Shown here piece by piece: positions 33,152 to 60,502 of a stretch of DNA of 64,000 nt (the first letter of the stretch is position 1; every line of letters begins with the position of its first letter). The DNA comes from Arbacia lixula (lineage: Eukaryota; Echinodermata; Echinoidea; Arbacioida; Arbaciidae). Location of the stretch: the NCBI GenBank assembly GCA_963669155.1, contig OZ022586.1:22835379-22899378 (forward strand), given 5' to 3'. Made by a program: the position numbers and the translations under genes. Under the pieces are notes generated by a model. It had not been told where the DNA came from. It saw nothing but the letters and a program-made list of their open reading frames with translations, and made no database searches.

Positions 33152-36100
33152 ATGGATAACCTGTTTCTAGCTTGGTCTGTCTTGCTTGTAGCAACCTTCA
33201 ATCCTTTACTATCTTGCGGTCAGGTAGTAGGTGAGTTGTGAGACGATACTGTTGGTGTAGTTGCAGTGATGATAGTATTGTGAATGGTGAACCATTATGT
33301 GTCAGGTAAACTGCTGCTCTATGGGATTTGTGTGCATTACATGTGGAAAAGAGCACATGTGACAAACAAGGGGCAACATATCACCACATTGTGTATAATC
33401 ATACTGCTTCACCTCTAGTCCCCCACCCCCCCCCCCCCCCCCCTCCTTACCTCCCGAACCCCTTTCTCCCGACTCTAGATACACAGAAGGCAACGTGGTA
33501 AGAGAGAATAAGCGGTATCGGGCTTTTCAAAATAAAAGATACAAAGCTTGACAGTGAATATGGAATAATTATAAGAAAGATGCGGGTAAAGAACAGAACA
33601 TTCGCTTCCACTCGGTACGCTCAATATTTTACTGATAGGTACTGAAACAAATGTGATATAACAACCAAGGATTTTGATTTCTTAAGTCATTAAGCACTGT
33701 ATGTCTCATAAGATTTTTTTTTTCATCAGACGTCCGCCTTGTGAACGGCCCATCACGCCTTGAAGGCACCGTGGAGTACACCACAGATTATGTCACGTGG
33801 CAGACGACGAGTGGGGTTAACTTTGGTTTCGACGAAGCTAGAGTTGTCTGTGAACACATCGGAGCCAATGGAACTAACAGGGCCATTACTGACTCACCTT
33901 TCGGTAGTGACCTTGGTCAACAAACCACATTTCTGGATTGCCAGATAGGTACGTAGAATTCCGATTCAGAAGTAACCTTACACAACTGATTGAAGGTCTC
34001 AACTGACTGACAGGTACGTAGATTATACTTCGTATGCATCCTTCAAGACAGATATAAACAGCACGGCGCGACAACAGGATCAAACTTAATCTTTAATGAC
34101 GTTTCATACGTGAGTGTATGCTATGTATGTGTGGGTGTATATTCGTGTAGAAATAATTTGTGGGTATGTTTGTGTAGAACGAATGTATGTGTTCCTATCG
34201 TGTCTTTTTGTTTAATTGAATGGACAAAATAAGAATTCGTTTTGGCTTCCCCTCCACATCCCTTTCCCAACACACACACATTTAAAGATGACTACTCGTA
34301 TGTTTCCATGACTCTGCATCCTTAACAGGTGATACAGCTATCAGTGATTGTTCGACAACAGTCATCGGAGCAGCAATTTGTTACGGTAGGAAGGATATCT
34401 TTTAAAATTCAATTATTTGTGTCGACTGCAATCATTTGAAACATGCATTTATCATGAATATATCTTATCTTATCAACCCAATCCTCACTCAGAGGCAGGG
34501 GGAGCTCCGCCCCTCTCCACTTTAATGGGGTTTTGGGGGGTGGGGTGGTTGTGAGCACAAGGGATATTTGGTAGATCTGGGAGCAATTATTGTGTCACTT
34601 TTGATATCAAAAGAAGTGAAATTAACGGAAACAAAAAGATATCATTGATCAATGATGTCGGTAAGCACTTTATCACCTTAGTCGTACCTATTCATTCTCC
34701 ATCATGTCCATTCGCTGCGTTCCTCACTCCGCTCTAATCACCATTTTGTTTCACGCTGTACAGATGAGACCTACCTGGGTTGTTATGTGGATTACGTGAA
34801 TAACATCCGCGTGCTGCCCGGTGATCCACTGCAGGATAGCACCATGACAATAGATAAATGCATTACCCACTGCAGAGAGTCCACCATGGCCGACTACGTA
34901 TATGCTGGAGTCGAGTTCGGGGAGCAATGCTTCTACGGTGTCGCAGGAACAAACTACAGTCGGCTCGGGGCAGCGAGAAATGGTGATCGTGATTGTCAGT
35001 TTCAATGTGCAGGGGACGCATATAGCTCATGTGGCGGAAATGGCAAAATCGCAGCATTTCAAAGTACGTAATAAGGACTAAATATATTAATACTTTTTTG
35101 TTGTGTTTAGTTTATACACAGTCGTTGTAGCTGCTCTGGATTGAAAACATCAATATTGTTTATGTGTTCTGAGAATGGGAAAGCTTGAAAGCGATTGAAC
35201 AAACGCAGCTTAAACTCACATTTCGGGATACGTTAGTAGGTCAAGGTAATGCACAGTAGCTCCTTAAACATCAGTTGGTTTAGAATCTTGCCATGTTGTC
35301 TTACGCAAAACCTCTGAAGAAATGTTATGCCCTTTTGCTTAGGATCCGAGGAGGGGGGGGGGGGGGGGGTTAGTTTGTTAACATGACTTTAAAGGTTTGA
35401 GGAATTTGTGCTTGCTAATAGTATACCGCAAGAAAACATTAATGAAATCTCACAATTTGTTCAGTTCCAGAACGAAGTCCGCCAGTCACCTCTCCGAAGA
35501 CCGTTATCGTGACAACTGAGGATGCGAATACAAGTTCAGGTAATTATAATCAACATAAACGTCATTCCAAAACAATGAAAAAAGTATAATAAACACAAAC
35601 AATCAATACGAATATAGAATTTGATTACAGGCTGGAAAATCATCCTCATTAGAATCGTGTTCTAAACATGTCAATGTCAATTTCATGCATAGCTGTTTTA
35701 CCTTTATAATTAAACCATGTCTTTGTTTCTTTGTCTGTCTCGCTTCCATCTCTGTTGAACATATTTTAACTCCTGAAACAAGCCATCCAGTCACAACTGA
35801 ATTGAAGATTTCTACACGTCAAGGTATTCATGCATCCTTGGGCTTAGGAGTACTATAGTTTTTGTTTGTTATGCATTAGTCTTCATCTCTGTCACGCCGT
35901 CATTTCACATGAATCACATCTCTTCTTTTAAAGAAACCGAAACTTTGACGTGAACAAATTACATATTACTTATGTCTGAATTAAATGATCAATATCATTA
36001 TGTAAACGAAATAAAAGACACGTGCGCATGTATCATATTCCCAACAGGTGAAAATGAAGACTCTTAAAAGATATAGACACAATCTTAAAGTATCATAAAT

Positions 36101-37567
36101 AATAGTTACTTCTTTCACTTATGAGGGAATATAGAGTAAATCATGACTTAAATTTCTTAGGCTTATACCAGTTCTTTTATTTTTACATTGCAACCATCAA
36201 CATCAGCTAATCAACAGTCGACTTCAACAGGCCTCACTACCGTTTCATCAACGCATGGGGAGGATGGTGTCCGGCAAGGTATACATACTGAATGTGTCAC
36301 ATAAATGGATAATGCATATTAAGTAATGTTTGCAAGAGGTGTACAATATAGGTGAAGCCGACTTCGTTAGGGAGGCTGTAAGTGTTGAGTACTGGCTGGA
36401 TCAGCAGCCTAAATTGTGCATTGTTTCAACTCTTAGATTGTAGTCTTACACAATTATGATAATCTATGCCGGATTGTCTTTTTCGGTCAGTTTGTTCGCT
36501 TAATAAACAATATCAACTACAGGCGGCATACGTTATTCCTATTAGGATCGCCTTATTTACAACGTATTGAATAAGCTAAATAGCATACAAGAGAAATGGA
36601 AAATGTACATATCTGTACCAAGATTCTATATAATTATATCAAAGTAAAAAAAAAAGATCATGTAAATCAGCCTTTCCTTGGATGGTGACCCTCTCTTTCT
36701 CTCTTTTTATCTCTACACACCCTCCTTCCCCTTCCCTGGCTATGTCCATATCATTTTCTCTATCAATCCATCATCTTTCATCTCACTTTCTTTCCTTATA
36801 ATTCAAAGGACCGATTATTGGTCTCGGAGTAGTGGTCTTACTGGTCGCCTTATACAGTGTCACCCTGACTGTTCTTTATCTCAGGATCCGGTAAGTCACG
36901 TGACATTATGACAGAAGCCGACAAACCTCGCACTTTCGATTCTTGCTGAACCAGACATGGTGCTCTCCTTCTGGCCTTAAGTTTGTTATTGATGACTTAG
37001 TACAACATAGCCTTTGGTCGAGTCCTCGCTCGCCGAACAAGGTTTGACAAAAGACTAAAGCAGTGTGCGTTTACGGTAGTGATCGCGCGAGCGAGCTGCC
37101 TTGGCAGCGAGCATCGCATGATAGTCTTATGTATGCAGACTCGTTCCTCGCATGATAGTCTTATGTATGCAGACTCGTTCGGCACATTTTGGGAAATAAA
37201 AGCGCCGAATGCCTTGCTGAAAGTTATTCGCCCTCAAATGATCTACATTTGGAGTAATGAGTGATTAAATCACAAATCCTCAAAATGTTCGGCCCGAACA
37301 TTTTGAGGATTTAATCATTTATCATTAATTACTCTATATGTGGATCATTTAAAGGCAAATTATTTTCAGCAAGCTTCTAAAATAGACAATACATGAATTT
37401 AAGACCATTGGCAAGAAGATTGCTAACAATTACATTTTGAAGGGTTTTTTGCCTTCCCAGTACAGTATATGCCCTTTAATCTTGCTTTATTCTTCATATT
37501 TCAATCCTATTTTTAATGTGTTTTTTTAATTGTCTGCTCAATACCCATTCTCTCCTTTTCACTTCCC

Positions 37568-37603
<36 letters not shown>

Positions 37604-37933
37604 GCCCCCCCCCCCCTCTCTCTTTCTACGTGTCTCTCTCTCAGTCGGTCTCCGAGGGAGGAGCAGCCGCTAGAGGGCGTGAAGCCAGAGGGAGACACCT
37701 ACACCGACCTGGACATCGAGCTCCACTCAGCCACTCCTGGGAACAGAGGCCCGCTATATCAAGACCTGCTGCCGATAGAAGGAGCAGCAATTCAGCCAAA
37801 CAAATCACAGGTGAATGGGACGGATACAGACGATGGGTGTTACGTCAACCAGCAAATGGCCAATCAGCAGAAAGCGATGAGACGGCGTGCAAAATCAGAA
37901 GGAGACCTGCAAGACTATGAGGATTTCGTGTAA
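33152..37933 (+). CDS. SRCR-WSC membrane receptor, gene A (9 exons, 401 aa)
   Basis: Exons: 33152-33230 signal peptide (MDNLFLAWSVLLVA); 33730-33948 and 34329-34385 SRCR domain (VRLVNGPSRLEGTVEY, VVCEHIG, GAAICY); 34764-35063 WSC domain (YLGCY, KCITHCRES, YAGVEFGEQC, SSCGGNG); 35465-35539, 35791-35823 and 36207-36278 Ser/Thr-rich stalk; 36809-36890 transmembrane helix (GLGVVVLLVALYSVTLTVLY); 37645-37933 cytoplasmic tail, stop TAA. All joints are phase 1 except transmembrane to tail (phase 2), and the sum is in frame. The tail has YTDL, YQDL, YVNQ (a Grb2 SH2-type YxN site) and DYEDFV at the end. SRCR domains bind ligands; WSC domains are carbohydrate-binding modules. It is a putative surface recognition receptor. 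Odd: the SRCR lacks two cysteines present in B and C, and the WSC lacks one. Confidence 0.85.
37114..37181. repeat. 34-bp tandem duplication in the last intron of gene A
   Basis: CGCATGATAGTCTTATGTAT and the following bases to CTCGTTC occur twice, 34 bp apart, with no visible mismatch. Confidence 0.8.
37211..37374. repeat. 164-bp near-loopless hairpin in the last intron of gene A
   Basis: Arms of about 80 nt meet at CGGCCCG with almost no loop. The innermost 18 bp (AATCCTCAAAATGTTCGG and its complement) are perfect and the outer parts (TTGCTGAAA...TTTCAGCAAG) are diverged. A fold-back or MITE insertion able to extrude a cruciform. Confidence 0.8.
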
Positions 37934-38090
37934 ATGAAAAGTTGCAGACCTATCTCATTTTTCACAAGCTGGTTTTTGAATGTTGGATATCCCATCTGAC
38001 GAATTTGCTTCAGAATAGGAGCCTGCATGGGATTCGGATAGTACAAATATAATCATAAAGATGGTTTAAGATGGCTTATCTGATCTTGAA

Positions 38091-38096
38091 AATAAA
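38091..38096 (+). terminator. Candidate polyadenylation signal of gene A
   Basis: AATAAA, 158 nt after the stop codon; another lies near 38289. Confidence 0.4.
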
Positions 38097-38099
38097 GTA

Positions 38100-39120
38100 A
38101 AGAAATAATCTGAAGTGACTTTTTTGGCATCCATGTACTAAATAGAGCATGCAATATCTATTGCTGGGTGTATTTTGTTGAGCTATTCTAAAACATATTC
38201 GAAGTCCTGCACTCTTGTTTCAGATGATCATGTTAGTAAGACCGTTCACACTTTCGCCTTACAGTTTATTTTGCCTGGTGTACAACAATAAATTTTCCCT
38301 CTTTGCCTCATTACAAGAACTGTTAATATGCCGTGCATATTTCACCTGCATTATACACATATTATGGGTGTATATGCACATGGAAGTTGTAGACATGATC
38401 CTTTTTTCTTGGACTGATAGATATTGAATATTATCAATAGTGATAATGTACATATCTGAGTAGTGAATTTATGTTTATTTTTATATGTTTAGATTTGTAC
38501 ATTATACGCTCTACTGATTCTCATATTGCTTCAATGTATTCTCTTATAAATAACGACAAAATAAAAAGGTTTATCTGTTATTTTGCAATTGTACATTTCT
38601 GGTAGGACCAGTATATATAATCATTGTTGCATTCATAGTGTGTTTTGTATAATATGGTTTAATTTCAACTACCTTTTCAAAAGTAAATGTGTACCATGCT
38701 AGTTTGTTGTAATTATTTTGTATGAAATCATATTTATTGTAAGCCACAAACAGTAACTCTTGTGTTACCGTTGTTTAGTGCTGGTCCGTGAATTTATCGA
38801 CAATCAGAATTGCATGATGATAAAAAATGATAAGTATACATTTCAAACAACATTACGGTAGGGAAGTTATATTCTTGACTAATTTGGTAAAGGGCTTCGA
38901 AAAGGAAGAGAAAGGGGAAATAAAGGATTTGTTGAGTAATGAATGTGTTTATGTGCCTGCATGTATTGTTATATGCATGATTTGCATGACCAATATAATA
39001 ATAATAATATTCAATTCTTAGAGACGCACAATACCATTCAAATAGTCTCTATGCGTGTGAAAGTAAAAATTGATTATGTGAGAATTTGAAAATAACCAAT
39101 AATTATCAAACAGATGCGTC
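38100..39120. other. Intergenic A-B, nothing recognised
   Basis: A/T-rich sequence following gene A, probably 3' UTR and spacer. It resembles in composition the spacer after gene B (47946-49000), including a shared TTTGCAATTGTACATTTCTGG / ATTGCACATTTCTTG-type segment (38580 and 48640), so part of it may be co-duplicated. Confidence 0.4.
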
Positions 39121-39124
39121 CTTA

Positions 39125-39425
39125 GTCTTGATTTGAATTGATCGAAGTCTGTCAATTATTTAATGCCTTAGGGGAGGTTATTCCATAATTTGGGTGCCGT
39201 ATTTGCAAATGCTCTATCACCGAATGTCTTAGATTTTACACAAATTTCAGAGAGAAGATTTTTGATTGAGAACGATGATTACGAGTAGGCTGGTATGGTT
39301 TAATGAGTTCAGTAAGATAGACAGGAGCATTTCCACATAAGCATTTGAATACAAGAGTGAGGATTTTAAACTGAACCCAAGCCCTTATCGGAAGCCAGTG
39401 GAGACTACGTAGGATCGGAGTTACA
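39125..39425 (-). pseudogene. LINE ORF2 C-terminal fragment
   Basis: Minus-strand translation gives LRSLHWLPIRAWVQFKILTL then FKCLCGNAPVYL, the C-terminal signature of CR1/Jockey-group LINEs (xLHWLPVxxRIxFKxLxLxFK). Later stops and frameshifts break it. No RT core remains. Confidence 0.75.
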
Positions 39426-39429
39426 TGTT

Positions 39430-39488
39430 CAAATTTCTTTTTTTTATGTGTGTATATGTGTATGTTAGTGTATGTTTATTTGTGACGG

Positions 39489-39586
<98 letters not shown>

Positions 39587-39700
39587 CGGAAGGGAGAGAG
39601 AGAGAGAGAATGGGGGTGGTGGGTAAAGAGAACATAGAAATATAAGGAGGGGGTGTGTGTTGAGGTATACGTAGAGACACACACACACACACACACATCC
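39430..39700. repeat. GT and GA compound microsatellite
   Basis: (GT)n at 39480-39520, (GA)n at 39520-39610 and (CA)n near 39680. It generates artefactual Ser/Leu/Thr/His-rich frames on the minus strand. Confidence 0.9.
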
Positions 39701-39979
39701 AGATAGGCTGGGGGAAGTGTCTGTATACACATGATAAAGAAGACAAGAAGCTATAGATGACACGCAGACAGAAATAACCCTTCGTATGTGAGTATGTGTA
39801 TGTGTGGTCATGTGTTTCTGATAATATTTTGTGCATTGTTTTTGCCTGAGTTGTTTTTCCGGCAACAATTAACCATTCGTATGCCAGATAAAATGCTGCT
39901 CTATGGGTTTTGAGTGTTTTACCTGTGAATAAAGTCACATGTAACATACAAAGAGTTAATGAGGATACACATCTGAATT

Positions 39980-40700: not shown

Positions 40701-40779
40701 CTCATTTACAAGAAAAGTCTCTATTGTTAGTTGCTTCCTTCTGTCAGTTTAGGGCAGTACAGAGGACACGCATATAGAA

Positions 40780-41455: not shown

Positions 41456-41640
41456 CCCCCCTTCTCTTTCAGATGTCTACTGCACTATCACCCCCCCCCC
41501 TCCCCCCCCCCCCTCTCTCTCTCTCTCTGTCTCTGCCTCTCTCCATTCCAATTCCAATGTATTTACACAGTATTCCTAATACCTTCTCAACCGTGAACTC
41601 CGCATTCTGCTTGGCTGTCTAAATTATGCTTTCCTTTTGC

Positions 41641-42270: not shown

Positions 42271-43127
42271 ATGGAATCCCTGTTTCTAGTGTGGTTCGTC
42301 TTCCTTGTAGCTATCTTGACCCCATTCTTATCTGGCGGTCAGGTAGTAGGTGAGTTCTGAAACGATTCTGATAGTCTAATTTAATACAATAATTATAGTA
42401 TTGCAAATGGCGAAACTTTCGTGTGCGAGGGAAACTGCTGCTCTATGGGATTTGTGTGCATTTCATGTGGAGAAAAAGGGCTGTAATACAGCCACATCGT
42501 GTGTAATCATACTGCTTGGCCACTCGTTTCGGCTTTGAATAATCATATGGAGAGTAACGTGGTAAAAGAAAAGAAGTCGTGTGGGTAAATAAGAAGAAAA
42601 TGCACTATATACGACCACACGGTAATGAAAAGAGAGGTAGGAATGGTGATGAAGAAGATAAAGAAGAAGATACGAGAATAAAATCTAGGCTCAATCTCAA
42701 TACGCTGAATATTCTACTGGTCGGAACTGCATAAGTTGGAAAAATTAGTAATGCATTTTGGGATTGCTTATTTTTGCCTCAGACGTCCGCCTAGTGAACG
42801 GTCCATCACGCTATGAAGGCACCGTGGAGTACACTACAGATAATGTCACATGGCAGACGACGTGTGGGGTCTTCTTTAGTTTTGAAGATGCGAGACTCAT
42901 CTGTGAGCACATCGGAGCATATGGAACTAATAAGGTCATTACTGACTCACCTTTCGGGAGTGACCTTACTCCATCAAACACATCTTTCTACTGCCAGGCA
43001 GGTACGTAGATTATCATTTGTGCACGTCCTCCAGTTCATGCTTGCCAGTCCTCCCATCATTACTATTGCAATCTCATGGTCACCCACCTTCCATTTCCCT
43101 TTAAGGCCATATAGATGTTGTCATCTA

Positions 43128-43236: not shown

Positions 43237-46200
43237 ATAAGGGAGACCCCATTGCACCTTCCTAACACGCTAAATGAACTTATTGCAGCCGTCACTAACC
43301 ATTAAATTTATCAAATAATGAGTTATGTTTCGGAAAATAATTTGCAACATTTTCTTAGATAGTTGCCATTCTCCCAAATAACATTGAGTCTGTATCCTCA
43401 ACAGGTCACACGACTATCAGCGATTGTACAGTGGAATCTCCTTGCCCGTCACCAGACATGGTCGGAGCAGCAATTTGCTACGGTAGGAAGCTTCAAATAT
43501 TGATATCCAAATTACATTAATCAAGAGCAGCCATTTTGGATTGCGCATGTATACAGTACCTACACCATGATTACTAGTTCGTCATACCCACCTCTGCTTC
43601 TATCATGTCTGTAGCCCACGGTCATCACCCAAACATCCAAATCTTGACATCTATTCGTGAATGGGAATCAGGATTAAAATGATAAGTCAGTTAAATAGAA
43701 TAAAACAGACTAAAACAGTTAGTATGTATGACTCTCTTGATGCTAACATATAACTTCCGCGAGCTTTACAAGAAGACGAGACTGTAATTATTATGTACTT
43801 TACATTGAAATATTGATTGACATAATTACATGTAGAATGGCAGGAATGAAATCCAAATATCGTATTTGAAGTATTGAATATTGCATAATTATATCTCTGC
43901 ATTTGATATCAGTGGATTACCTTTACCATTGTCGTCTATTTTGAGTTAAACCTTGCTTGTACCGATTCTTTGTCCATACTTTTAATTCACTGCGTTTCTC
44001 CCTATATTCTTTGGTGCAGACGATACCTACCTTGGATGTCACAAGGATAATTCGAGCGATCGCGTTCTACCCGGTGATCCACTTATAGGGGATAGCACCA
44101 TGACAATCAACAAATGCATCACCCACTGCAGAGAGTCCACCATAGCTGACTACGTCTATGCTGGAGTGGAGAACGGGGAGGAGTGCTACTGCGATGTCGC
44201 AGGAACAAACTACAGTCGGCTCGGTGCAGCGAAGAATGGTGATGAGGATTGCCAGACCCCATGTGCAGGAGACGTCCATAGATCATGTGGCGGAAATGGT
44301 AGCATCGCAGTATTCAACGGTTAGTATACAGTAGTTTTTATGGCCCCTGGTAATATTTCAATAGAGAGAATAAACATTAACAAAAAATAATTTTCATTTG
44401 CTCTGATGATAATATAGATGAAAATCTACGATTCGTATGAAACGCATAACATGCAGTGATTTAACGTGTTCATATGCGCTGTTAAAAACAAAAGTATGAT
44501 ATACAAGATAGGAGACGTGCGGGATCTTAAACAAATGTTTATACATTACATTTAAAGGACGTGTATTGTAAAGCAATCTTAAATTTATCATTTGAATCAG
44601 TGCTTTTAAGTGTTTCACGAATTTAAAGCAGTGAGGCTGCGTTCACCATGTGACCTGGTCAGAGCTAGTTATATGCATGACTGTTTAGAGAAAGAAGATC
44701 CATCGTTCCATGATGTCCAAATTCGCTGGATTTTTTAACATTATGTTAGAGGCAATCTGTAATCAATAAGGTTGATTGGAACCAACCAATCATACTATGA
44801 TAAATGTTATACAAATCTAGGTTGTACACTAATTTCATTTTACCCAAACTAAAAAGGCGACAGCAATAAAAGCCTAGCCAAATGTAAAGATAATTTGAGC
44901 AACGTGCAAAATTATAGGTATTTGAAAGCAAGTTATTAAAAGCAGTGCACATATTGGTTCTTAACTAAAGCATTATTTTCAAGATTGTGAGAAAAACAAT
45001 TATTGGTTTTCCTATCCTTTGTAAATTAGGTATTTAGGTATACTTTTGTGTTTCCTCTTGGAATAAACGTTTAATATTCACATGTGAATAGTTATTTTCA
45101 ACAATGTATTTGCAGGAGATAATAGTGGAATGAATCTAGGCCTCCAACAAATTGTTTTCATCTTGTCAGAGTGATTTTGTTGGTCAACAAGTGACACTAA
45201 TAACTGTACAGTACATGTATCAATATGTATCCTCGTCAAATGACTGGATTCATGCCTTTCGTCAACCAGTAAAAAGCTTCGTGGCCCCCACTGACATGAC
45301 TGAGGGTAGCACTCAAACATCAGGCATGACAGGTGTGTATGATAAAAAAATTTACACTCTAAATGTTCAAAACTTTACGAAACATGGCCCTCTCGAAGAA
45401 TAGTGTTGAAGCACTAAAGGGGGCTGCCTGGAGTAAATAATAATGACTAGATAACAAAGATTCATCATGAAATAACCTTACTAACCAGTAAAGTAAATGG
45501 GTAATAGTTCCAAAGACATTATCTGCCATGGGAGAATAAAATCAACGAATTTCAACAATATATAGTTTGCTTCCTTCTGTGGGATGAGACAGACAGTGCA
45601 CAAACGTGTTCGTAGAAATAAGTATCGAATACAATACAAGGAGATAACGGAGCTACAAAAGAGTTATTCAATATGAGGTATCGTAGTTGTTAAAATAAAA
45701 CAAATCAGTGTATTTTCTATGATTGAACAAAATGTATAGGACGTTTGGATCTTTGTATCTTACCTTTAGTATGTTATATTTTTGTCCGCTTGTCTTGTTT
45801 AGATTTTGACCATTATGAACTGCTTATTTAGATATCGATTGATCACATTAACCGGTTGGTGTATTACATTTAGTAGGGTTATCTGCTGAATGATTAATTT
45901 TCTCAGTCATCCAGCAGATGAAATATAAAATAATGCACCCATCGGGCTATGTATATGAATCTAATTAAATGTATGAGTTATCATTGTATGTATGTCTTCG
46001 TTAAAATGTTTTACGAGTTTGTTGTTAAAGATCTAAGAATGGTACATGCTTAGATACAGTTAGGATAATTTGAAGTGGAAGAATTTATCAAACATTGTCC
46101 AAATAAATACAGCCTACGTCTTTACGTCAAACAAACACAAGACGGGCTCTACAACTCCAGTTGATACGTCCACTCCTGCTGTCACGATGCCAGTAGGGAA

Positions 46201-47945
46201 CGCCAACAACCTAGGTAGGATTACACCTGAAATACCGCCGGACAGCACTTATACCAAGCTTTGTCTTTATCATGTTAATAGGAATACATTAAATATTCAA
46301 ATGTGGCAGATTTCCAATTCTCTTCAGGTATTACCAGTCATATCGTATTGATAATGGATGTATTTAGTTTTGGCAAAGAGAATGGATATTGTCAATGCGT
46401 ATTATTGAACATGAATGCCTGATTGACCTTATAGTGTAGTTTAAAGGGTTACTAAAGTAGAAAAGTAAGTTCCTACTAATCTATGTAAAATTATCCACTT
46501 AAAACGAATTTAACATTCGTTTGCCGCAATGAAGTCTCATTCTGACGAAAATTTGAAAAAAAAACGCACGCCTCCAGTGACGTATGAGAAGTCAAAATGC
46601 CATCAATGCCAACGGCGTAAATAATGTTTTATTTACGCCATTCAAGCAATACGTTACCAATGGGAACCCCAAAGCTTGTCCGAGGTTTGTCTGAGTAGCA
46701 ACAACTAATAGATTCAAAGTGCATTCCATCCATTGAATCTGAATGAGAAGATACAGGTGAATGCAATAACGCGTTACTACGCAGTTAGGGGGAAAATTGT
46801 GAATACATTACGAAAATGGTCTATTGTTGACTTCCGTACAAGCTATGGAATTTTGACTTCTCATACGTCACTGGAGGCGTGCGTTTTTTCAACTTCTCGT
46901 CAAAATTAGACTTTATTGCGGCAAACGAATGTGAAATTTGTTTTTAGTGGATAATTTTACATACATTAGTGGGAACTTATTTTGGTAATTTAGTAACTCT
47001 TTAATGACATCAAATGTTATACTTTTCTAAACAAGGGGTTGCAGCCGGTGCGGGTGGAGGAGCAGCTGGGCTCGTGATCATCCTCGTGGTCATCATTGTC
47101 GTCGTAGTCATTTATAAACGCAGGTGTGTGATGAAGTGTTATCCGTACATGTAAGTTGAGTGGTAGCCCTAGAAGTGATAATGATTGGGGATGTTGGATT
47201 TGTAAATAAAGTGATAGAAGTAGAAAAATGTTAACGATTTTGTAGCTGTAGAAGTTCTTCAAAGAAAATAATGAAGAATCAATAAAAGCAATAGGAGTAG
47301 AGGTAACATCAATATGAAGTAATTGAAGTAATACATTGGTATTAAAACTTAAACGAAAAAGTAGTAGTAGGGATATCAGTTTTCGAAAGTACATGTAGGA
47401 CATTATATGTTTTTGACTGCATAATGGGGTTTTTTTTCTCCCCCCTCCTTTTTTCCTTTTTTTCTATATCTTTACCTCTGTACATTTGTATCCTTCAACG
47501 TTTTTTCTTCTTGTCCCTATCATTACCTCAATTTTTACTAAATTCAATCCACTGTAGACATGGCAGAGCGGCAAGAAAAGCGCCTCTCCCCGATCAGCAT
47601 CATGACAAGTTTGAAGCGAATAACTACGATGACATTCTTATGGATAGCACTCTTGGTAAAGGAAAGCCAGCCCTCCCTCACCATTACGAGGATTCCATCA
47701 AGTTCCGTGTGGCCAATATGGAACCGCAGCTCAACATGGGATTAGCGAAAGACGAAGAGGATCTTAGCGCCTCATACGATGTGTCGATCCGCAACCGCGC
47801 CTCGAAGGCAACGGAGGCTAGCACGCAGGAATCTACGCCACCGGTCACGGATGCGTTGTACGCCATGCCGGATGAAAGGAAGAAAGTGACCGACGACGAC
47901 GTCGAAGACGGCCCGGAGATGGTAGAAAACCCATTCTACGCATAG
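42271..47945 (+). CDS. SRCR-WSC membrane receptor, gene B (8 exons, 422 aa)
   Basis: Exons: 42271-42349 signal peptide (MESLFLVWFVFLVA); 42783-43001 and 43405-43482 SRCR domain (YEGTVEYTTDN, TTCGVFF, LICEHIGAYG, ISDCTVESPCPSPDM, GAAICY); 44020-44319 WSC (YLGCHKD, KCITHCRES, GEECYC, RSCGGNG); 45270-45332 and 46161-46214 Thr-rich stalk; 47036-47123 transmembrane helix (GLVIILVVIIVVVVIY followed by KRR); 47558-47945 tail, stop TAG. Phases are 1 throughout, then 2 into the tail, and the sum is in frame. All SRCR and WSC cysteines seen in the family are present. The tail has YDDIL, YEDSI and YDVSI motifs and ends ENPFYA, an NPxY-type adaptor/PTB motif. The tail shares no visible sequence with that of gene A. 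Stalk exon boundaries are the least certain; the first two ectodomain exons match A and C in length exactly. Confidence 0.85.
43130..43235. repeat. (TCTA)n followed by (TA)n microsatellite
   Basis: Pure tetranucleotide then dinucleotide runs in the intron between the two SRCR exons of gene B. Confidence 0.95.
46445..47000. mobile_element. MITE with about 160-bp TIRs and TTAA target duplication
   Basis: The left end AGGGTTACTAAAGTAG and the right end (reverse complement) AGAGTTACTAAATTAC open inverted repeats that extend about 160 bp through TTCGTTTGCCGCAAT and ACGCACGCCTCCAGTGACGT. TTAA flanks both ends (46441-46444, 47001-47004). It has no coding capacity. TTAA targets are used by piggyBac and Kolobok transposons, so one of these likely mobilised it. 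It ends 31 nt before the transmembrane exon of gene B. Confidence 0.9.
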
Positions 47946-52180: not shown

Positions 52181-52363
52181 TTTACCGCGGTGTGAATTTA
52201 TAACGGACATGTTTTTATTCCCGTTCAATGATGCAGGCTGGTCAATGTGTAGGTGCAGATTGTAGACGGAATTATTACTGTCTTGATGTTGAACACCCTC
52301 CAAGGAGCAAGTGAGCCAGCTGTCATGTTTTGTTAGTGGACACTTACTACCATCGACATCGCC

Positions 52364-52379
52364 CCAGCTGACTGGTATC
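52364..52379 (+). promoter_or_regulatory. Conserved proximal element, gene C
   Basis: CCAGCTGACTGGTATC, 44 nt before the ATG. The core is identical to genes A and B, with CAGCTG in place of TAGCTG. Confidence 0.45.
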
Positions 52380-52423
52380 GTCAGAGACTCATATCACAGA
52401 ACTAAGTCGATAAACACACAAGG

Positions 52424-55400
52424 ATGTTTCAAGCTTGGCTCGTCTTCCTCTTCGTTACCTACAACGCATTGCCATCTGGCGGTATGATACTAGGTAAGTT
52501 CATGCGACTTCTATACCGAATGGCATCCTATAATGTGAAACATCTTTAGATTAGCCAAAATATGATGATTCATATTGTTGAGCTTCTTATATTCCCTTTG
52601 CCTCTAAAACATGATAAAATACGATTAAAGAAGAGAGTGAGAATAATGAGTACTGTATTATGGGATTGGTTATTTTTACCCCAGACGTCCGTCTTGTGAA
52701 CGGCCCATCACGCTATGAAGGCACCGTGGAGTACACCGCAGATAATAACACGTGGCAGACGACGTGTGGGGTCAACTTTGATTTCGTCGATGCTAGACTT
52801 GTCTGTGAACACATCGGAGCTTATGGAACTAACAGGGCCATTCCTGATTCACCTTTCGAGATTGACCTTGGTCAACCAACCACATTTCTCAACTGCCAAG
52901 AAGGTACGTAGATTGCCATTTGTACATGTCCTTTAAGATATGCCCGTCATTCCTACCATCATTACTGCTATCATCTCGTAAAAAATCAACCTTACATTTC
53001 CCTTATTTGGTCTAAGAAATGTAGTCAAGAGAAAGACATTTATTTACATACTGCAACAGCTATGTCTACATCTTCCTATCACTTTAATTAAATTCTGCTA
53101 TGGTCAATATGCATAGGTTTGTAGAATAACATGTTGTCAGAAATAACTTTGTGATACCATCGTTCTTGCGTTAAAATATGTTATAATTGCCTACACAGAT
53201 TTAATTCGCCCGGTGATATTGATTCTGCATCCTCAACAGGTGACACCTCTATCAGCGATTGTGGATTAGTGTCTTCTTGTTCTTCACCTGACATGATCGG
53301 AGCAGCAGCTTGTTACGGTAAGAAGGTTCAAATGTTGAATATACTTGTCAAGCCTTTCCCTCTCCTCATTCCCAGGTCATACACACCCCTGCACCCTATC
53401 ATCACCCTGACCATCCGACCAGCCACTCGCCCATATCTATTCAAGCATGACTTTCAGGAAGGGCATATGACTTATTGACCATATCTTTAACACACAAGTT
53501 AAAAAAAAAACAAAATCCAAATGCATTCAAAATAAACATAAAGACATGGGTTTTTGGCAGTGCAATATATAACAACACATAGCTTGTGTTTCTTTGAGGT
53601 CAATAATTGTTTATGTAGTAATGTTTAATGAAACAATACTTAACATTAATTTCAGTTATGTATTACGAGAACGAATGTCTTCCTCCCTGTGTGCTGATCA
53701 TCGTTCTGTTTTCATTTTGCAGACGACACTTACCTCGGATGCTACATGGATGCAATGAACCATCGCGTGCTACCCGGTGATCCACTGATAGAGGATAGCA
53801 CTATGACAATCGATAAATGCATCAGCCACTGCAGAGAGTCCACCACTGCTGACTACGTCTATGCTGGAGTGGGGAACGGGGAGGAATGCTTCTGCGGTGC
53901 CGCAGGAACAGACTACAGTCGGCTTGGGGCAGCGGTGAATGGTGATGAGGATTGCCAGACTCCATGTGAAGGGGACGCCCATAGCTCATGTGGCGGACTT
54001 GGCCACATCGCAGTATTTCAAAGTGTGTAAATGTAAATTGTTATAAACCAAAACATTGTTTAAAGTGGTGTACAAGATGTTGTTTCCATAATGCTTGAAA
54101 AAAAAATAATGTTTTGGTCATAAAAGTGAAGTGTCACATTAAGTTAAAACCTTTGATCTCAACACAAAGACAAAATCAAAGAATTACCTTGAAATTTTCG
54201 GCGGCTAACTCTAGCCTTCCTCAGCGATGACCGAAATGATCCGATTCGGCCTGGTGACGTAGCGGTCGATAATCGGTTCGTAGACACTCGGAAGCTTTAA
54301 TCGCTCTTCGTCCCTAATCACAAATCCAGAGAACGTTTCTGAGGAAACCCAGTTGGGTTTTCAACGAGGTCGACAATCTCAACAAGGAAAACTCTCCGCC
54401 TGAGAAGAAAAATCCCAAGCCTCCAAAAGGACAAATTGTGCTTCCGTACGTGAAAGGATTTTCCGAAGCCCTCCGTAGAAATTTTTATCAATTTGGAATA
54501 AGGGTGTGCTACAAACCAACAAGATCCTAAAGACAGTACTTAAGAACCAACACCTCCTGCATATACCTCGTACTCGCGCCCAGACATATGGACACAGATC
54601 TTTTTCATTTATTGCTCCAAGCTTCTGGAACAACCTCCCACTGCACATCGTGAAAGCACCATTATTATCTTGAAAGCTGTACTTCAGACCTACATGTTTA
54701 CTAAATAGTTTCGTGTTTTTTAATGTAAAAACTATTAATGTAAGAATGTAAGATATGTACCTTTTTAGGAAATCTGTAGATATTAATGTAAAGCACATAG
54801 AGAACTTTTATCGTCATAATGCGCTATATAAGGTTTACTTATTATCATCATTATCATTACTTAGTTGCCCCGAGGGACAAAAACCGAGAAGGATATCACT
54901 GGTCCTATTCACTTGATTCTTTTCCAAGGACCAGATTCTTTGAACATCGACGCCCTAGCTCCACTTCTTCTGAGGTATCGCAGGTATCACATGGACATCA
55001 GCAAGGTTCAAGTGCTGGACAGGGAGCCGCAGTCCTTCGAGAGAGGTGTGAAAGAAGCGATCTACATCCGGGCGTTCAACCCTTCTCTAAATAGGGACGA
55101 AGGGAGATACAAGCTACCGAGTGTCTACGATCCGATTATCGATCGCTATGTCACCAGGTCGAATCGGGTCACTTCGGTCATCGCTGAGGAAGACTGCAGT
55201 TAGCAGCCAAAAAAAAAGTGGAGGTAATTCGTCGAATTTTTTCTTTGAGTTGAGTTGAAAAGTTTCAACTTGAGGTTATTTTCAACCAACACTAATCAAC
55301 TTTCATGATCGTAAAGTGAAGTGTCGTTCTTGTAGCAATGTACCCGAGGGGATGCAATAACACCCGGAACTAAGCCGTCCCCTGTTTCACATAAACAGGG

Positions 55401-58400
55401 ATCACTTACAAATATTAGCTCCAGTCTTTATCACTGAATAAATATTTTTTTTCTTCTGACCTTGTTTCTTGTATTGTGCGTTGTAATTTTACTTTGTGTA
55501 ATTATGTTTAAAGTTACACAGTTTTGCCAAGACCATATACACTCGTTGAAATAGGCTGCTTTAAAGGATATGTGAGATACAAAAAATGCGTTTAAATTGA
55601 TTTTTATTCGTACAGGATATATATATATCAATAAATACAAGTCAATTTTACAGCCATATGACATCAGTAGTCGGAGAATTTCAAGTTCAAACATGGGGTG
55701 ATTTTGGCATAAAAAAGCGGCCCCTGCGAAACTAACGAGTACATCCGGGAGATTCTGTGACGTAAATCTGTAGATTCGATCGCGAGCTAGCATCCTACGG
55801 GCGCTATTTTTGAACCCTACATATTGCATACGAGAACGCCATAATTTGTGACCGAGAAATATCTTCAGATGATGAAATCACCCTCGATCTTGATTTTGAA
55901 ATTCTGGATGAAGAGAGTAATGGTAGTGATAGTGACGAAAGCCACAGTAATATCGACAAGGATGACGGTGATATCGGAGAATTTGACAGTGAAAATGGAG
56001 GTGCGGGTGATCAACAAGCTGCTGCAGATCGATTCTACGGATTTACGTCACTTTCGCTCTACGTAAGTACAGTAATGTTTTAAATTTCTGAACTCGGACG
56101 ATTTGGTGGCAAGTCAAAATATTCTTTTTAGGGGGTTGGAGGTGGTAACATGGTGTAAATGGAATACATGACATTTGGGACACATTCAAGACTCATAAAA
56201 TGTGAAATTGACATGAATTCGCCATTTCAATAATTGAGCATTTCACAGCTCCCTTGACAGAACTCATGAATGTTTACATTAGACTTGCAACATATTAACG
56301 ATATGCGTGTGATATTAACTGTAACATTTACGCACTTTCGGCTTGCCCATCTCCCATTTTCGTTAATATTCTTGAAATTATATTCTGATTTCTTTTTACA
56401 AAATTCATATATGATTTAATAATGTTATCATAACTACAACATTATTTGAAAGAGGGGCATTTATAACAGTTGTACTTGAATCATCATTGAACTGTGATCT
56501 TGTATAGTGATCGTATAGAGGCTCTAAGTAGCTTAAATGTTTTAAAAGATGAAATTGTTTTAGTCCTTAACCAAGCCAGCCAACCACAACTCCATTGCCT
56601 TTCATTGCGGATATTAATACATGTCCATTATAAGAAACAGTACGAGTAAATTGTTAAATTCCATTTAATAACTGCGAAACCGTTAAAGTGCCATTAGACT
56701 TGACGACGTGTTGAGATATTTTATCTCAAGAAGTCAACATTTTGTCGAGTTTTAAAAATATATAATCTAACGATGTCGACTCATTGAATGTTATAAGACG
56801 ACGTGACAGCGGAGGATGGTGATAGTGATTGCCAAACTCCATATACCGGGGACGCCCATAGCTCATGTGGATACATTGCAGTATTCCAAAGTGCGTACTT
56901 GTGATTTGTTTTGAAGAAAAGTATCTTTGAAAGTAGCGCACAAGATATTTTTCATAATACTTTGAAAATATTGTTTGCTATCGCCATGAATTCGAATTGT
57001 CGATTTTGCATTAAGGTACTGGAAGGGATATATGAAATCTCACCCGCATGGACATCGTTCCCAGTTCAATCTCCCTATACATGTACACGTAGAGAGAAGA
57101 CGTTCGGACACGTTTTATAACATGTCCTCATCATAACTTGAAATTATATGAAGTATTGCATGTATAATTACTGTACTATGTAACCATATAGTACATTTTT
57201 CGCTAACATGCCTCCTTTCCAAATATTGTTGTGGTTCCTGAATCAAGCCAGCCAACCACAACTTCACTGACTTCCACTGAGGGCATTGCAACTCCAGGTA
57301 TTTCTACGGATGAAATAAGTGACAGTACGATAGAATTATTATTTGCATCGAATAATGTCTGTGAATTCAATATAATAGTTTTTGCTTGCAATCTTTGACA
57401 TGAAATTTCAACTGTATGTACCGCAGAGAAAAGGATATTTTAGGTTAAAGATTGTCCTTCCCTTTTGCAAGCTTAAAATTTGAAATCGTCTATCACGATC
57501 ATAAATTGAAGAAAGTGTGATTCAAGACCATTTCGAGGAATATAGCATGTTGAAGCTTTTTGTATATGTAAAGATTTCAGCCGTTGAATTTCAAACCGAC
57601 TTTTTTCGTACCACGAAAAAAGTATTAGTCTTTGTTACAGTATCTATGTGGTTATTATCCATGTGTGAAATCCTAATTTTATGAGAAATTACCAAACTTT
57701 GGAGATGCTTTCTTCTATAGAACAATTTTTTTCATAATGTGTTTTATAATTTAATAAACAGATTAATCAATAAAGGAGATATTTCAACACAAACTGCTAA
57801 GAGCCTGAGGTAAAGACTACTAATCAGACGTTGTTTACGTGCATTATTTGAATTTTACACTACGTATCAGTTTCAAATTATGAATATACAGCTTGCTAAC
57901 ACTTCTCTACACGTTTGGCCAATGTTTCGATGGTTTTGTGGTGATCTGAAAAAGGGAAAAAGGGAAAAAGGGACGGGCTGTTAGATATAGCTAGGTTTAA
58001 GCATGACACCACATCTCTAGCCGAAGTGGTGAGCAGAATTACAATTTAACACCTCATTCGTTCCTTTGGTCTTTCTAATCAAGGAAGAAGAAAAAATTCT
58101 TTACATCCATAAAGGAATCCTTTATTTGTTGATTCAGGATTTTTATGCCTCCGCCACGAAGTGGCCCGAGGCATTATGTTTTCGGGTTGTCCGTCCGTCC
58201 GTCCGTCCGTGAACCAGATTTGCTTCAAACTTGGTACCTGTGTGTATTGCATAAAACCAATGAAGTGTGTAAAATTGAGGTCAAATCTGATTGAGGTCAA
58301 AGGTCAAAGGGCAATGAACTTATGAAAAATTGCCCCAATTGACCTTTTTCACATTAAATCCAAATCCAAGGATACAATTTTCATCAAACATGGTACAAAG

Positions 58401-60502
58401 ATAGATCACTACTTGGAGGTAGACCGGTGACATTTTGTGTAAAATTCCTGAAAGGTCAGAGGTCAAAGGTCAATGAACTTTGTAAAAAAAATTACACAAA
58501 TCTGACCTTTTTTACAATGAATCCAAGGTCAAGGATGCAGTTTTCATTAAACATGGTACAAAGATGGATCAGTACTTGGGGATAGACTCGTGAAATTTTT
58601 GGTAAAATTCCTGAAAGGTCAGAGGTCAAAGGTTAATGAACTTTGCCAAAATTACCTAAAAATTGCTCCCAAAGTGATATTTTTCACAATAAATCCAAAT
58701 CCAATAGCGCATTTTCAACCAAACATGGTGCAAAGATGGATCACTACTTGGGGGTAGACTGATAACATTTTGATGAAACTTCTCAAAGGTCAATGAACTT
58801 TGCCAAAATCGGTTATTTTTCACAATGAATCCGAATCTAATGATTCAGTTAAAAAAAAAAACATGGTACAGAGATGTGTCACTTCATGGAGGAAGACTGG
58901 TGAAAGTTTGGGTAAAATTCCTGAAAGATCAGATTTATGAGCTCAGCCAAAATTTACTGAAAATTGCTCCAAAATTGATATTTTTCACAATAAAGCCCAA
59001 TCCAATTATGCATTTCAAGAAAAAATGTTACATAGATGAATCACAAGGATACAAGGATGGATAGTTACTACTCATTTCAGGTACTTTCATGTACGGTCGC
59101 ATTATATGTATTGTTTAAATTTGTAACGCCATCAATTCACATGAATGACACCTTTCTTACACAAGCTGAAATTTCTGCATAATCGTATCTATGAATGATA
59201 TTATGAAAACGGTTACCTTATTCAATTTCAATTCTTTATTCATTTAACAAACAAGAATTAACAACTTTCATGAACAATGAGTATAAGGCATCACCAGAAA
59301 GCCGATGGCTTGTGAGATGTGATAACCATTAACATGTGGTTCAAAACACATAAGTATAGAGTCCATTATTTAAATGACATACAGTAAGATGAACCCAAGT
59401 ACACAAAATACATAAAAATATATACTTAAAAAAACATATATCAAAGAGAGACTAATACAAGCAAATACAAACGAAGCAAAAAAACACAAACGAAGTGGCC
59501 GGAAGCATTATATTTTCGGGTTGTCCGTCCGTCCGTCCGTCCAGAATCCGTTTAGGCAATATCTTGAGAACCGTTCACCAGATTTGCTTGAAACTTAGTA
59601 CATGTGTGTATTGCATGAAACAAATGAAGTGTGTAAAATAGGGGTCAAATCTGCCCGAAGCCCCAAATAAGACCTGTAAAATGGTCGAAAGCTTGGCTGA
59701 TTAACGTTTGTGAACACACTAGCTACGTCCAACCGCGTCCTTCTTCTGCAATCTCAAATATAATTTATGATGCGGCACCCATCACGTACGTGGCCGACGC
59801 ACATTCACGTTTTTTTACATATAGGATAGGAACTAACAAATACCTACACTGCGACGTTTATATTGTATGAACAAAAGAAAAGGAAAGTGAGTATATATTC
59901 TTTCAGTAAGATTGTCTTGAGGTCCGAGAGGCAGAAAAATGTCACTCTCACAAATTGAATAAAATCATGGAAACGTAATATCGTGAATAACATGTCGAAT
60001 CCAATGCAGTTGTTAGGGACTTTTAAGTGAGGTGCATATCACAGTCTCACTCCCGTTCTCATATCTTTACAGCGGCACCAACAACATCAGCTAATCAACA
60101 GTCAACTACAACAGGTCCCACTGCCGTTTCTGCAACACATAGGGAAGATGGGAAGGGTAAACAAACTTAATTTTTCACATCCTATTCACAACCTAAAAAG
60201 TTTGAAAGAGATAGAGACGATATCGTGTTTGCATAATTTGAAAGATGTATAATTCTGATAGTAAAGAGGCCTTACTACCATTGTGGTGTATTTTTTTTCG
60301 ATTTTCTAGTATTGTTAGTATGATTGAAGTGTGATGTTATCTTTTGGCTGTCATTTATAGACAGATTTGAAGTTATGACCACGTGAACTTACACTGCTTT
60401 TACAATCACCACCATTTCTCATGTTGTCATGTCGTCGTACAGACACAACGACTTGCATCTGTCCAACCCAACCAACACAGCTGAGTGCATCGCCTTCCAA
60501 TG
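52424..60502 (+). CDS. SRCR-WSC receptor, gene C (5' part; continues off the right edge or broken)
   Basis: Exons: 52424-52493 signal peptide (MFQAWLVFLFVTYNALPS); 52685-52903 and 53240-53317 SRCR (TTCGVNFDF, LVCEHIGAYG, SSCSSPDMIGAAACY); 53723-54022 WSC (YLGCYMD, KCISHCRES, GEECFCGAAG, SSCGGLG). Then, beyond 6 kb of repeats, stalk exons 60073-60156 (APTTSANQQSTTTGPTAV; close to gene A exon 7) and 60443-60502 (TTTCICPTQPTQLSASP). All joints are phase 1. No transmembrane or tail exon is seen before the satellite array at 60950, so they lie beyond the window or are lost. The intron after the WSC exon contains a Penelope-like element, a partial WSC duplication and a stalk exon with a broken acceptor. 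The ectodomain is intact; whether the whole gene is functional is unknown. Confidence 0.75.
54182..55230 (+). mobile_element. Penelope-like element fragment with inverted terminal copies
   Basis: A frame from 54357 reads PKGQIVLPYVKGFSEALRR then QFGIRVCYKPTRS, the region after the RT of Penelope-like elements. After a LINE insertion, 54865-55203 encodes VLDREPQSFERGVKEAIYIR then NPSLNRDEGRYKLPSVYDP, the C-terminal signature that follows the GIY-YIG nuclease in many animal Penelope/Neptune elements. The coding end (55087-55230) is present again in inverted orientation at 54182-54320, including ACACTCGG and TCACCAGG blocks. Inverted or tandem terminal copies are characteristic of Penelope elements. 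The RT core and most of the nuclease are missing. Confidence 0.7.
54553..54862 (+). mobile_element. LINE 3' fragment inserted in the Penelope-like element
   Basis: Translates as LHIPRTRAQTYGHRSFSFIA then PSFWNNLPLHIVKAP, a CR1/L2-type ORF2 C-terminus. A 3' end follows with GCGCTATATAAGG and an ATTATC repeat tail (54825-54862). It splits the two Penelope segments. Confidence 0.75.
55814..56062 (+). CDS. Acidic open segment ending at a splice donor (uncertain)
   Basis: A frame without stops encodes a strongly acidic stretch (SSDDEITLDLDFEILDEE, SNGSDSDESHSN, DKDDGDIGEF) ending TSLSLY before GTAAGT. It contains no in-frame ATG and the acceptor is unclear. Acidic leaders of this style occur at the start of several transposon-encoded proteins, and 55560-55840 may be the non-coding left part of such an element. 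It could also be chance. The overlapping minus-strand frame at 55431-55829 is not supported. Confidence 0.2.
56565..57298 (+). pseudogene. Duplicated stalk exon relics of gene C with lost acceptors
   Basis: Two copies of CAAGCCAGCCAACCACAACT (about 56570 and 57245) resemble gene A stalk exons 5 and 6. The second is otherwise complete (VPESSQPTTTSLTSTEGIAT, donor GTATTT at 57299). However, the position of the gene A acceptor (TTCAG before TTCCAGAAC) reads TGTGG, so it cannot be spliced in the same way. Confidence 0.6.
56800..56892 (+). pseudogene. Truncated duplicate of the gene C WSC exon 3' end
   Basis: Reads GDSDCQTPYTGDAHSSCG then YIAVFQ, matching the last third of the WSC exon 53723-54022. 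Its downstream intron also matches (CATAATACTTTGAAAA against CATAATGCTTGAAAA). It has lost the first two-thirds of the domain, one Cys (Tyr) and part of the GGLGH loop. Confidence 0.8.
58140..59080 (+). repeat. ATGCCTCCGC repeat element, copy 2 (partial)
   Basis: Same start hairpin, (TCCG)n tract and tandem AGGTCAAAGGTCA-bearing units as 18930-20375. The end with GCGGAGGCAT is missing. Confidence 0.8.
59480..59660 (+). repeat. ATGCCTCCGC repeat element, copy 3 (5' fragment)
   Basis: Begins GAAGTGGCCGGAAGCATTAT, has (TCCG)n, and matches about 170 bp of the 5' part of the family before ending abruptly at GGGGTCAAATCTG. Confidence 0.75.

Follow-up and report, generated by a model that had tools for sequence, protein, structure and literature searches.

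What kind of receptor is encoded by a group of neighbouring genes on contig C11 that each join an SRCR domain to a WSC domain, and how does one type of ectodomain come to stand in front of different cytoplasmic tails? We addressed this starting from a window of 64,000 nucleotides (C11:22835379-22899378, the whole stretch of DNA analysed) in an assembly of 606,990,701 bases and 590 contigs. The gene models built from it and from its paralogues show tandemly arranged genes for predicted single-pass receptors of type I, with one group A-type SRCR domain, one WSC domain and a Ser/Thr/Pro-rich stalk, joined to one of two modules of transmembrane segment (TM) and tail.

Gene models and domains

Three exon sets on the forward strand, genes A, B and C, were modelled from the sequence as predicted single-pass receptors (Table 1). 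The order in A (390 amino acids) and B (438 amino acids) is signal peptide, SRCR domain (two exons), WSC domain (one exon), two stalk exons, TM exon and tail exon. Every intron of the three models is GT-AG, with phase 1 between the extracellular exons and phase 2 between the TM and tail exons. The rebuilt models and the Pfam matches reproduced the exons, phases and domains of a preliminary description of this locus, and its outer borders, 33152 (the ATG of A) and 60502 (the last in-window exon of C), are exact exon borders. That description ascribed a TM and a tail to A and B, which held; gene C has both too, beyond the window. They lie in the right phase 4.6–5.4 kb past the window edge, the tail being of type A, and give a full-length protein of 393 amino acids. 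A secreted gene C protein ending right after the WSC domain was also considered, since the unspliced frame stops there. This short form is the less likely of the two: the homologous position has a donor, and exons for stalk, TM and tail follow downstream, which favours the membrane form.

The spliced translations were searched with the Pfam hidden Markov models (gathering cut-offs 26.1 bits for SRCR and 27.8 bits for WSC), a check proposed with the preliminary description, and both domains passed in all three genes. SRCR and WSC scored 30.2 and 54.6 bits in A, 29.8 and 58.7 in B, 34.2 and 63.0 in the short form of C, and 33.0 and 60.3 in its full-length form. Nothing beyond SRCR and WSC exceeded the cut-offs in the Pfam scan of A, B and C. 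Taken by itself, the first SRCR exon of gene A reached 25.1 bits, just under the cut-off, and the two-exon splice therefore matters for the SRCR call. Four more ectodomains from other loci exceeded both cut-offs. Sequence matches to solved structures agreed, with SRCR proteins such as PIT54, CD163 and CD6 for the SRCR part (stretches within residues 22–129 of B) and Kremen 1 for the WSC part (E 4.5e-9 and weaker).

The array on contig C11

The three genes had been described as adjacent paralogues, which they are, but they are only 3 of ~70 genes. We searched the genome with the WSC exon (150 matches scored out of 173 candidates; strong matches ≥54 bits) and with the first SRCR exon (best 150 of 593 candidates scored; strong matches ≥60 bits). 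Because only the best candidates were scored, the array counts are lower bounds. The last 2.1 Mb of the contig (C11 21.66–23.72 Mb) held at least 69 strong WSC exons, 62 on the minus and seven on the plus strand, and at least 75 strong SRCR exons. The median spacing of the strong WSC exons was 13.3 kb, and the last one lies 62 kb from the contig end. In 67 of the 69 cases, a strong SRCR exon of the same orientation preceded the WSC exon by less than 9 kb without another strong WSC exon intervening; the median distance was 1,038 bp (range 646–8,636). Eight of the 75 SRCR exons in the array had no WSC partner. Three further SRCR-WSC pairs were recognized by eye outside the array (C22:6.62 Mb; C11:14.64 and 14.68 Mb). 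We fetched stretches holding 43 of the array's WSC exons.

Other matches lay apart from the array. A second WSC cluster at C11 20.2–21.6 Mb consisted of ~300-bp matches from a different subfamily with an insertion; two 3-kb stretches of it (L049 and L050) gave no match to the family SRCR exon. Dense runs of weaker SRCR matches (~32–38 bits), spaced ~0.6–1 kb, were found at C17:6.85–6.87 Mb and C5:9.55–9.57 Mb, and are perhaps large multi-SRCR genes.

Two transmembrane and tail modules

Both a TM and a tail exon were found in 18 fetched genes, and their types always agreed: seven genes had TM_A with tail A and 11 had TM_B with tail B. Two additional fetched genes showed TM_A only. Tail A has four tyrosine columns (YTDL, YQDL, YVNQ and YEDF), all invariant in seven genes; YVNQ we take to be a Grb2-type site. 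Tail B has seven tyrosine columns, six of them invariant in 11 genes. Its typical sites are YDEI, YEDC, YAVV, LYAVS, two LYAMP and a C-terminal VENPIY, and the tail of window gene B is shorter, without one LYAMP. In the hydrophobic core of 20 TM segments, inspected by eye and including one partial match, there was no K, R, D or E.

The tails were separated by their motifs. YxN was present in 7/7 A tails and 0/11 B tails, NPxY in 0/7 and 10/11, and YxxP in 0/7 and 11/11. In shuffled B tails, NPxY occurred at 4% and hydrophobic-x-NPxY at 0.6%. YxxPhi was found in 7/7 A and 8/11 B tails (55–73% of shuffled tails), and YDEI/YDDI-type sites in 8/11 B tails. The pattern of the immunoreceptor tyrosine-based activation motif (ITAM) was found in none of the 18 tails. 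A pattern like that of the inhibitory motif (ITIM) was found in 3/7 A and 7/11 B tails, at shuffle frequencies of 0.12 and 0.17. The SH2/PTB-type motifs claimed earlier hold at the level of conserved sequence, through YxN in the A tails and NPxY in the B tails; binding by them is a prediction.

Genome-wide, tail B gave 85 matches, all within the array (56 candidates, all scored). Tail A gave 36 (40 candidates, all scored): 30 strong matches and one fragment in the array, one at the SRCR-WSC pair on C22, and four weaker ones elsewhere. Tail A recurred in two loci beyond the array, L051 and L052, at 43–45% identity, with YTDLDIQLHS, PLYQGL and CY(I/V)NQ kept. L051 (C11:2938800-2944800, 2.94 Mb) encoded a WSC domain (65.5 bits), a Sushi exon (22.9 bits, cut-off 20.7), a TM_A-like segment and a tail A-like exon. 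In the 1.9 kb upstream of its WSC exon, no family SRCR exon was matched. L052 (C12:3958600-3962600) had an A-type TM and tail. In the first of these loci we also noted by eye an open reading frame of 227 residues on the minus strand (L051:220-900) that resembles a Tc1-type transposase.

Assortment of tails and ectodomains

Along the contig, each gene was assigned the nearest tail match within 30 kb. Tails were thus assigned to 61 of the 69 genes (37 B and 24 A), and eight had none. A and B genes were interspersed, with 33 runs in 61 against a shuffled mean of 30.1 (4146 of 5000 shuffles gave no more runs than this). On an ectodomain tree of 20 labelled genes, the tail label needed six changes (6–8 in bootstrap), at least four of them forced by starred branches. 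Shuffled labels needed 6.8–6.9 changes, and tail type was not detectably clustered on the tree, because 183–187 of 500 shuffles were as low. All four starred groups (7, 3, 4 and 6 genes) held both tails, and trees made from SRCR or WSC only needed seven changes each. In these 20 genes, ectodomain and tail assort INDEPENDENTLY.

The stalk exon ST_A1 followed the WSC exon in A-tail and B-tail genes alike, and later stalk exons tracked the tail type; the usual break therefore seems to lie in the stalk. Nearest neighbours by SRCR and by WSC were concordant in just seven of 30 genes. From position 42960 onwards, windows of gene B and its neighbour g22922, with introns and the WSC exon among them, were 93–99% identical; identity was lower in the SRCR exon (86%) and around exon 1 (67–81%). 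This pattern points to exchange within ectodomains as well. Recombination or gene conversion would be the simplest cause of the re-pairing.

Remnants of tail B were found 3' of A tails; across the array, which has 30 A tails, seven B loci lay next to one. They lay downstream of the A stop codon in five of seven A genes aligned; gene A showed only 3' noncoding similarity and gene C none. The A and B tails of the window aligned weakly (score 39; 50 of 1000 shuffles as high), and each tail profile scored ≤1.2 bits on members of the other type. The remnants and the weak alignment both point to tail A as a recent truncation of tail B, but this was rejected as the whole story, the profiles being mutually blind and A-type tails occurring outside the array. 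Replacement of the B module by the A module therefore fits better, and the remnants suggest that A modules replaced B modules in place.

Relatives and age of the tails

An ectodomain search of a set of 5.8 billion proteins gave two matches, the better one to a WSC-TM-tail protein of the sea urchin Strongylocentrotus purpuratus (LOC105439939, XP_011667815, here P0001; E 2.2e-19) and the other to a fungal WSC protein. The better match supports an echinoderm, or a near relative of echinoderms, as the source of the DNA. With the whole B protein as query, none of 7995 candidates reached E ≤ 0.001, low-complexity TM words having probably filled the candidate list; with P0001 as query, only P0001 itself was returned. 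The short list of relatives reflects the word filter and coverage of the protein search, not rarity.

P0001 resembles the family in its WSC domain, stalk, hydrophobic segment and B-type tail (34% identity to B over 328 columns). It differs as a predicted protein that begins at the WSC domain and has no Pfam SRCR, and is perhaps a truncated gene model. The profile of the 11 B tails scored 24.2 bits on its tail, which none of 2000 shuffles reached (best 9.7), and the tail A profile missed it (1788 of 2000 shuffles as high). P0001 and the typical B tail have three LYA sites each and end near EN-x-x-Y. Because the B profile finds the P0001 tail, tail B should be older than that split, unless the host is close kin of the sea urchin. 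Likewise, the A-type tail in L051 makes tail A older than the divergence of the array genes and the WSC-Sushi gene in this genome.

Cysteine patterns

Group A SRCR domains have six cysteines (C2, C3 and C5–C8, without C1 and C4) and are encoded by two exons. Here, the SRCR domain spans exons 2 and 3 in A, B and C. C1 and C4 are not cysteine in A, B and C, and no such cysteine column exists in 34 genes. Conservation among the fetched genes was 30/32 for C2, 33/33 for C3, 34/34 for C5 and 41/41 for C8. The SRCR domain had been called divergent, which is correct for the sequence, but the group A cysteine pattern (C2, C3, C5–C8) is intact in B and C. Two genes depart from the six-cysteine pattern by lacking C2 and one of C6/C7, namely gene A and g23724, a near copy of it (97% identity in the SRCR exon, 94% in the WSC exon). 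A deletion of the C6-C7 loop was found in exactly these two C2-less genes, as if the C2-C7 disulfide had been lost as a unit.

In the WSC domain, seven cysteine columns were conserved in 43/43 genes and the eighth in 42/43, the exception being gene A. Mean entropy was highest in the second SRCR exon (1.15), which carries the C6-C7 loop of variable length, and was 0.65 in the first SRCR exon and 0.73 in the WSC exon.

Integrity and selection

Among the 43 fetched genes, the second SRCR exon was found in 41 and the first in 34, many misses falling at a stretch edge. The exon matches used (34, 41 and 43, 118 in total) had no stops; these were local matches. Splice sites at homologous borders were conserved in 29/29, 26/26, 29/31, 41/41, 43/43 (WSC acceptor), 43/43 (WSC donor), 17/17 (TM acceptor) and 19/19 (TM donor) cases. 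Both failures at the 29/31 border look like matches with the start out of register.

The ratio of nonsynonymous to synonymous substitution rates (dN/dS) over SRCR and WSC was 0.35 for A-B, 0.45 for A-C and 0.44 for B-C, and every bootstrap replicate stayed below 1. Only the short stretch of signal peptide in B-C had dN/dS >1. The gene models are more than chance, because the splice sites recur in paralogues and dN/dS is 0.35–0.45. The corresponding ratio of proportions of differences (pN/pS) was 0.64 and 0.61 for the SRCR exons, 0.54 for WSC, 0.42 for tail A and 0.50 for tail B. By these ratios, the family exons are constrained on average. In the three ectodomain exons, dN exceeded dS in 64/560, 80/743 and 13/902 non-independent pairs, and in the tails in 0/21 and 0/55.

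Comparison with known systems

In the sea urchin, 253 of 359 SRCR genes lie in tandem clusters, and 36 WSC domains occur within SRCR proteins (PMC10855680). The array resembles that superfamily in joining SRCR with WSC and in its tandem clustering; it differs in spreading one SRCR domain over two exons, sea urchin SRCR domains being each in a single exon (PMC10855680). The order of one SRCR and one WSC, or the two tails, are not described in the main text passages of that report (PMC10855680). In the sea cucumber, 37 SRCR loci were reported, most if not all of group A, in a main text without the term WSC (PMC13228809). A “Scavenger Receptor/WSC/Sushi” protein of Patiria miniata, PMI_006935, is listed in a skeletal proteome (PMC5460417). 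This sea star protein unites SRCR with WSC (PMC5460417), and L051 brings WSC, a Sushi exon and an A-type tail together in one locus; the two were compared by description alone.

The preliminary description held that no receptor of this order had been described. SRCR and WSC co-occurrence had already been counted (PMC10855680) and the Patiria protein listed (PMC5460417), and the claim now narrows to the one-SRCR one-WSC single-pass form, which we did not meet in the passages available from open-licence literature. Nor did we meet there a description of this receptor and its tail exchange. Against that literature, what appears new is a one-SRCR one-WSC receptor with two exchangeable tails; SRCR expansion and the co-occurrence of SRCR and WSC were already known.

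The WC1/CD163c-alpha receptors are also multigene SRCR receptors with tyrosine tails, and have the tail motif Y-(Q/E)-(D/C/E)-(I/L) (PMC2906472). YQDL fits this motif in 7/7 A tails, against 0/11 B tails and 1.4% of shuffled A tails. In contrast to the single group A-type SRCR with a WSC domain found here, their SRCR domains are of group B, and no WSC is named in the parts of that source consulted (PMC2906472). The tails of CED-1/Draper/MEGF10 combine NPxY with a YxxL site or an ITAM (PMC8092387). Most B tails share with them the NPxY (10/11) and a YDEI/YDDI-type site (8/11). The differences are the ectodomain, of EMI/EGF type there and without such domains in the Pfam scan of A, B and C, and the lack of an ITAM in our 18 tails. 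By analogy, WC1 and CED-1/Draper/MEGF10 appear to be the nearest functional parallels, and the family is a member of neither. Kremen 1/2 are likewise type I membrane proteins with a WSC domain, but their kringle and CUB domains were absent from the Pfam scan of A, B and C. In vertebrate-style paired receptors, the partner form has a charged TM residue and a short tail, unlike the 20 uncharged TM cores seen here.

Function and alternatives

We consider it fairly probable that the array is a modular germline repertoire for innate recognition, in which one type of ectodomain is wired to two tyrosine-signalling outputs; the immune role is inferred. SRCR proteins act in pattern recognition (PMC10855680), and a fungal WSC lectin is reported to bind beta-glucan (PMC9024836). 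The ectodomain would bind glycan- or protein-bearing surfaces, such as microbes or altered or foreign self, and the receptors would sit on immune or gut cells as a surface repertoire. Clustering by ligand might lead a Src-type kinase to phosphorylate tyrosines in the tails. For tail A, the result would be recruitment of SH2 adaptors (Grb2-type, with YQDL fitting the WC1 motif), an activating output. Tail B, with its C-terminal V-x-N-P-x-Y and its LYAxP, would recruit PTB and SH2 adaptors for uptake, as in CED-1/Draper/MEGF10. Recombination or gene conversion between neighbours would re-pair ectodomains with either tail, giving one kind of specificity two outputs.

More tentatively, with slightly less than even confidence, we propose that recombination on the 2-Mb array repeatedly joins variable SRCR-WSC ectodomains to either of two ancient tails that are no longer recognisable in one another, and that each ectodomain lineage exists in tail-A and tail-B versions. 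This would be an independent counterpart of paired receptors, one using two tyrosine tails and not tail loss with charged-TM adaptors. Echinoderm SRCR expansions have so far been counted without showing how recognition becomes response. Here, ectodomain and tail vary independently in one compact family, and the same recognition domain can be compared with two outputs. The array is a set of natural swap experiments, which would make the diversification and wiring of invertebrate innate receptors directly testable.

Several observations weigh against these proposals. Shuffling alone produced YxN in 17% of A tails and YxxP in 49% of B tails, and the binding partners named for the tail motifs are putative. 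Five genes had more than one tail candidate, and 6/30 A and 4/41 B tails were assigned to no strong WSC gene. The discordance of nearest neighbours may partly be noise in short exons. The WSC fold model had a predicted local distance difference test (pLDDT) score of 45, a failed prediction. Three SRCR matches and one WSC match in the array had a stop, and orphan SRCR, WSC and tail fragments occurred in the fetched loci. Average pN/pS was below 1, and diversifying selection, read from exon divergence exceeding intron divergence in 75 pairs, was rejected: the pairs had been picked by intron similarity, and the excess was gone when they were picked by exon similarity. In this control, WSC gave pooled dN 0.074, dS 0.117 and intron divergence 0.094 (21 alignable of 29 pairs), and SRCR gave 0.071, 0.098 and 0.132 (22 alignable of 25 pairs).

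Receptors for self or allorecognition, or for gamete or cell adhesion, would fit the large tandem array, the mosaic ectodomains and their constrained cores, with conspecific ligands and different outputs for the two tails; we regard this as unlikely, though nothing in the sequence separates self from microbial ligands. A scavenging or endocytic role for food or host debris in the gut, with NPxY and YxxPhi as internalisation signals, seems a little less likely still. The frequency of NPxY in B tails and of YxxPhi in both, the latter also common in shuffled tails, agrees with it, as does the raised SRCR expression reported for digestive tissues (PMC10855680). Yet four to seven conserved tyrosines per tail plus YxN exceed endocytic need, and two exchangeable tails suggest distinct outputs.

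Developmental or matrix receptors, either Kremen-like in using WSC as a Wnt co-receptor or akin to skeletal-matrix SRCR/WSC proteins, are improbable. The Kremen 1 structure matches of the WSC part and the Patiria skeletal-proteome entry (PMC5460417) speak for them, but A, B and C have no kringle or CUB in Pfam scans, and ~70 tandem copies are unlike a developmental co-receptor. Finally, a largely decayed pseudogene array with few live members, to which the unpaired SRCR exons (8/75), the genes without an assigned tail (8/69), the B-tail remnants beside seven A tails, the WSC fragments and the SRCR and WSC matches with stops could belong, is very improbable given the stop-free exon matches used, the conserved splice sites and pN/pS well below 1.

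Other features of the window

The exons of the three genes are listed in Table 1.

Table 1 Predicted exons of genes A, B and C, in window positions.
Feature	Position	Strand	Basis
Gene A exon 1: start codon and signal peptide	33152..33230	+	hydrophobic N-terminus, GT donor, homologous exons in paralogues
Gene A exon 2: SRCR first part, C2 to Ser	33730..33948	+	model, Pfam
Gene A exon 3: SRCR end, C6-C7 loop deleted	34329..34385	+	model, cysteine columns
Gene A exon 4: WSC, 7/8 cysteines	34764..35063	+	model, Pfam, cysteine columns
Gene A exon 5: Ser/Thr/Pro-rich stalk	35465..35539	+	exon shared by paralogues (ST_A1)
Gene A exon 6: stalk	36207..36278	+	homologue in gene C and paralogues
Gene A exon 7: transmembrane helix, type A	36809..36890	+	19-residue hydropathy peak 2.45
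Gene A exon 8: cytoplasmic tail, type A (YTDL, YQDL, YVNQ, YEDF)	37645..37933	+	model, tail alignment
Gene B exon 1: start codon and signal peptide	42271..42349	+	model
Gene B exon 2: SRCR first part	42783..43001	+	model, Pfam
Gene B exon 3: SRCR end	43405..43482	+	model
Gene B exon 4: WSC	44020..44319	+	model, Pfam
Gene B exon 5: stalk	45270..45332	+	homologues in L010, L025
Gene B exon 6: stalk	46113..46214	+	homologues in B-tail genes
Gene B exon 7: transmembrane helix, type B	47036..47123	+	19-residue hydropathy peak 3.26
Gene B exon 8: cytoplasmic tail, type B (YDDI, YEDS, YDVS, LYAMP, C-terminal NPFY)	47558..47945	+	model, tail alignment
Gene C exon 1: start codon and signal peptide	52424..52493	+	model
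Gene C exon 2: SRCR first part	52685..52903	+	model, Pfam
Gene C exon 3: SRCR end	53240..53317	+	model
Gene C exon 4: WSC	53723..54022	+	model, Pfam
Gene C exon 5: stalk	60073..60156	+	model
Gene C exon 6: stalk	60443..60502	+	model
Gene C exon 7: TM, type A	window-equivalent 68577-68658, beyond window	+	model from adjoining 10 kb (L023)
Gene C exon 8: tail, type A	window-equivalent 69106-69394, beyond window	+	model from adjoining 10 kb (L023)

Gene C contained an inverted repeat pair (180 bp, 82%) at 54141-55271, bounding a transposon-like insertion, and after it an orphan WSC fragment at 56809-56889. A tandem satellite with a period near 71/141 bp (61048-63996) lies inside its last long intron and reaches the window edge. 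Flank pieces were duplicated together with exons of the receptor genes. A repetitive element with ~160 bp units was present on either side of the receptor genes, at 18928-20138 and 58140-59653. On the minus strand, an open frame of 1428 residues (6968-11254) resembled by eye a Gypsy-type retrotransposon polyprotein. It is flanked by identical 170-bp direct repeats (5709-5878 and 13283-13452), and the element may have inserted recently at this site, which lies upstream of the three receptor genes.

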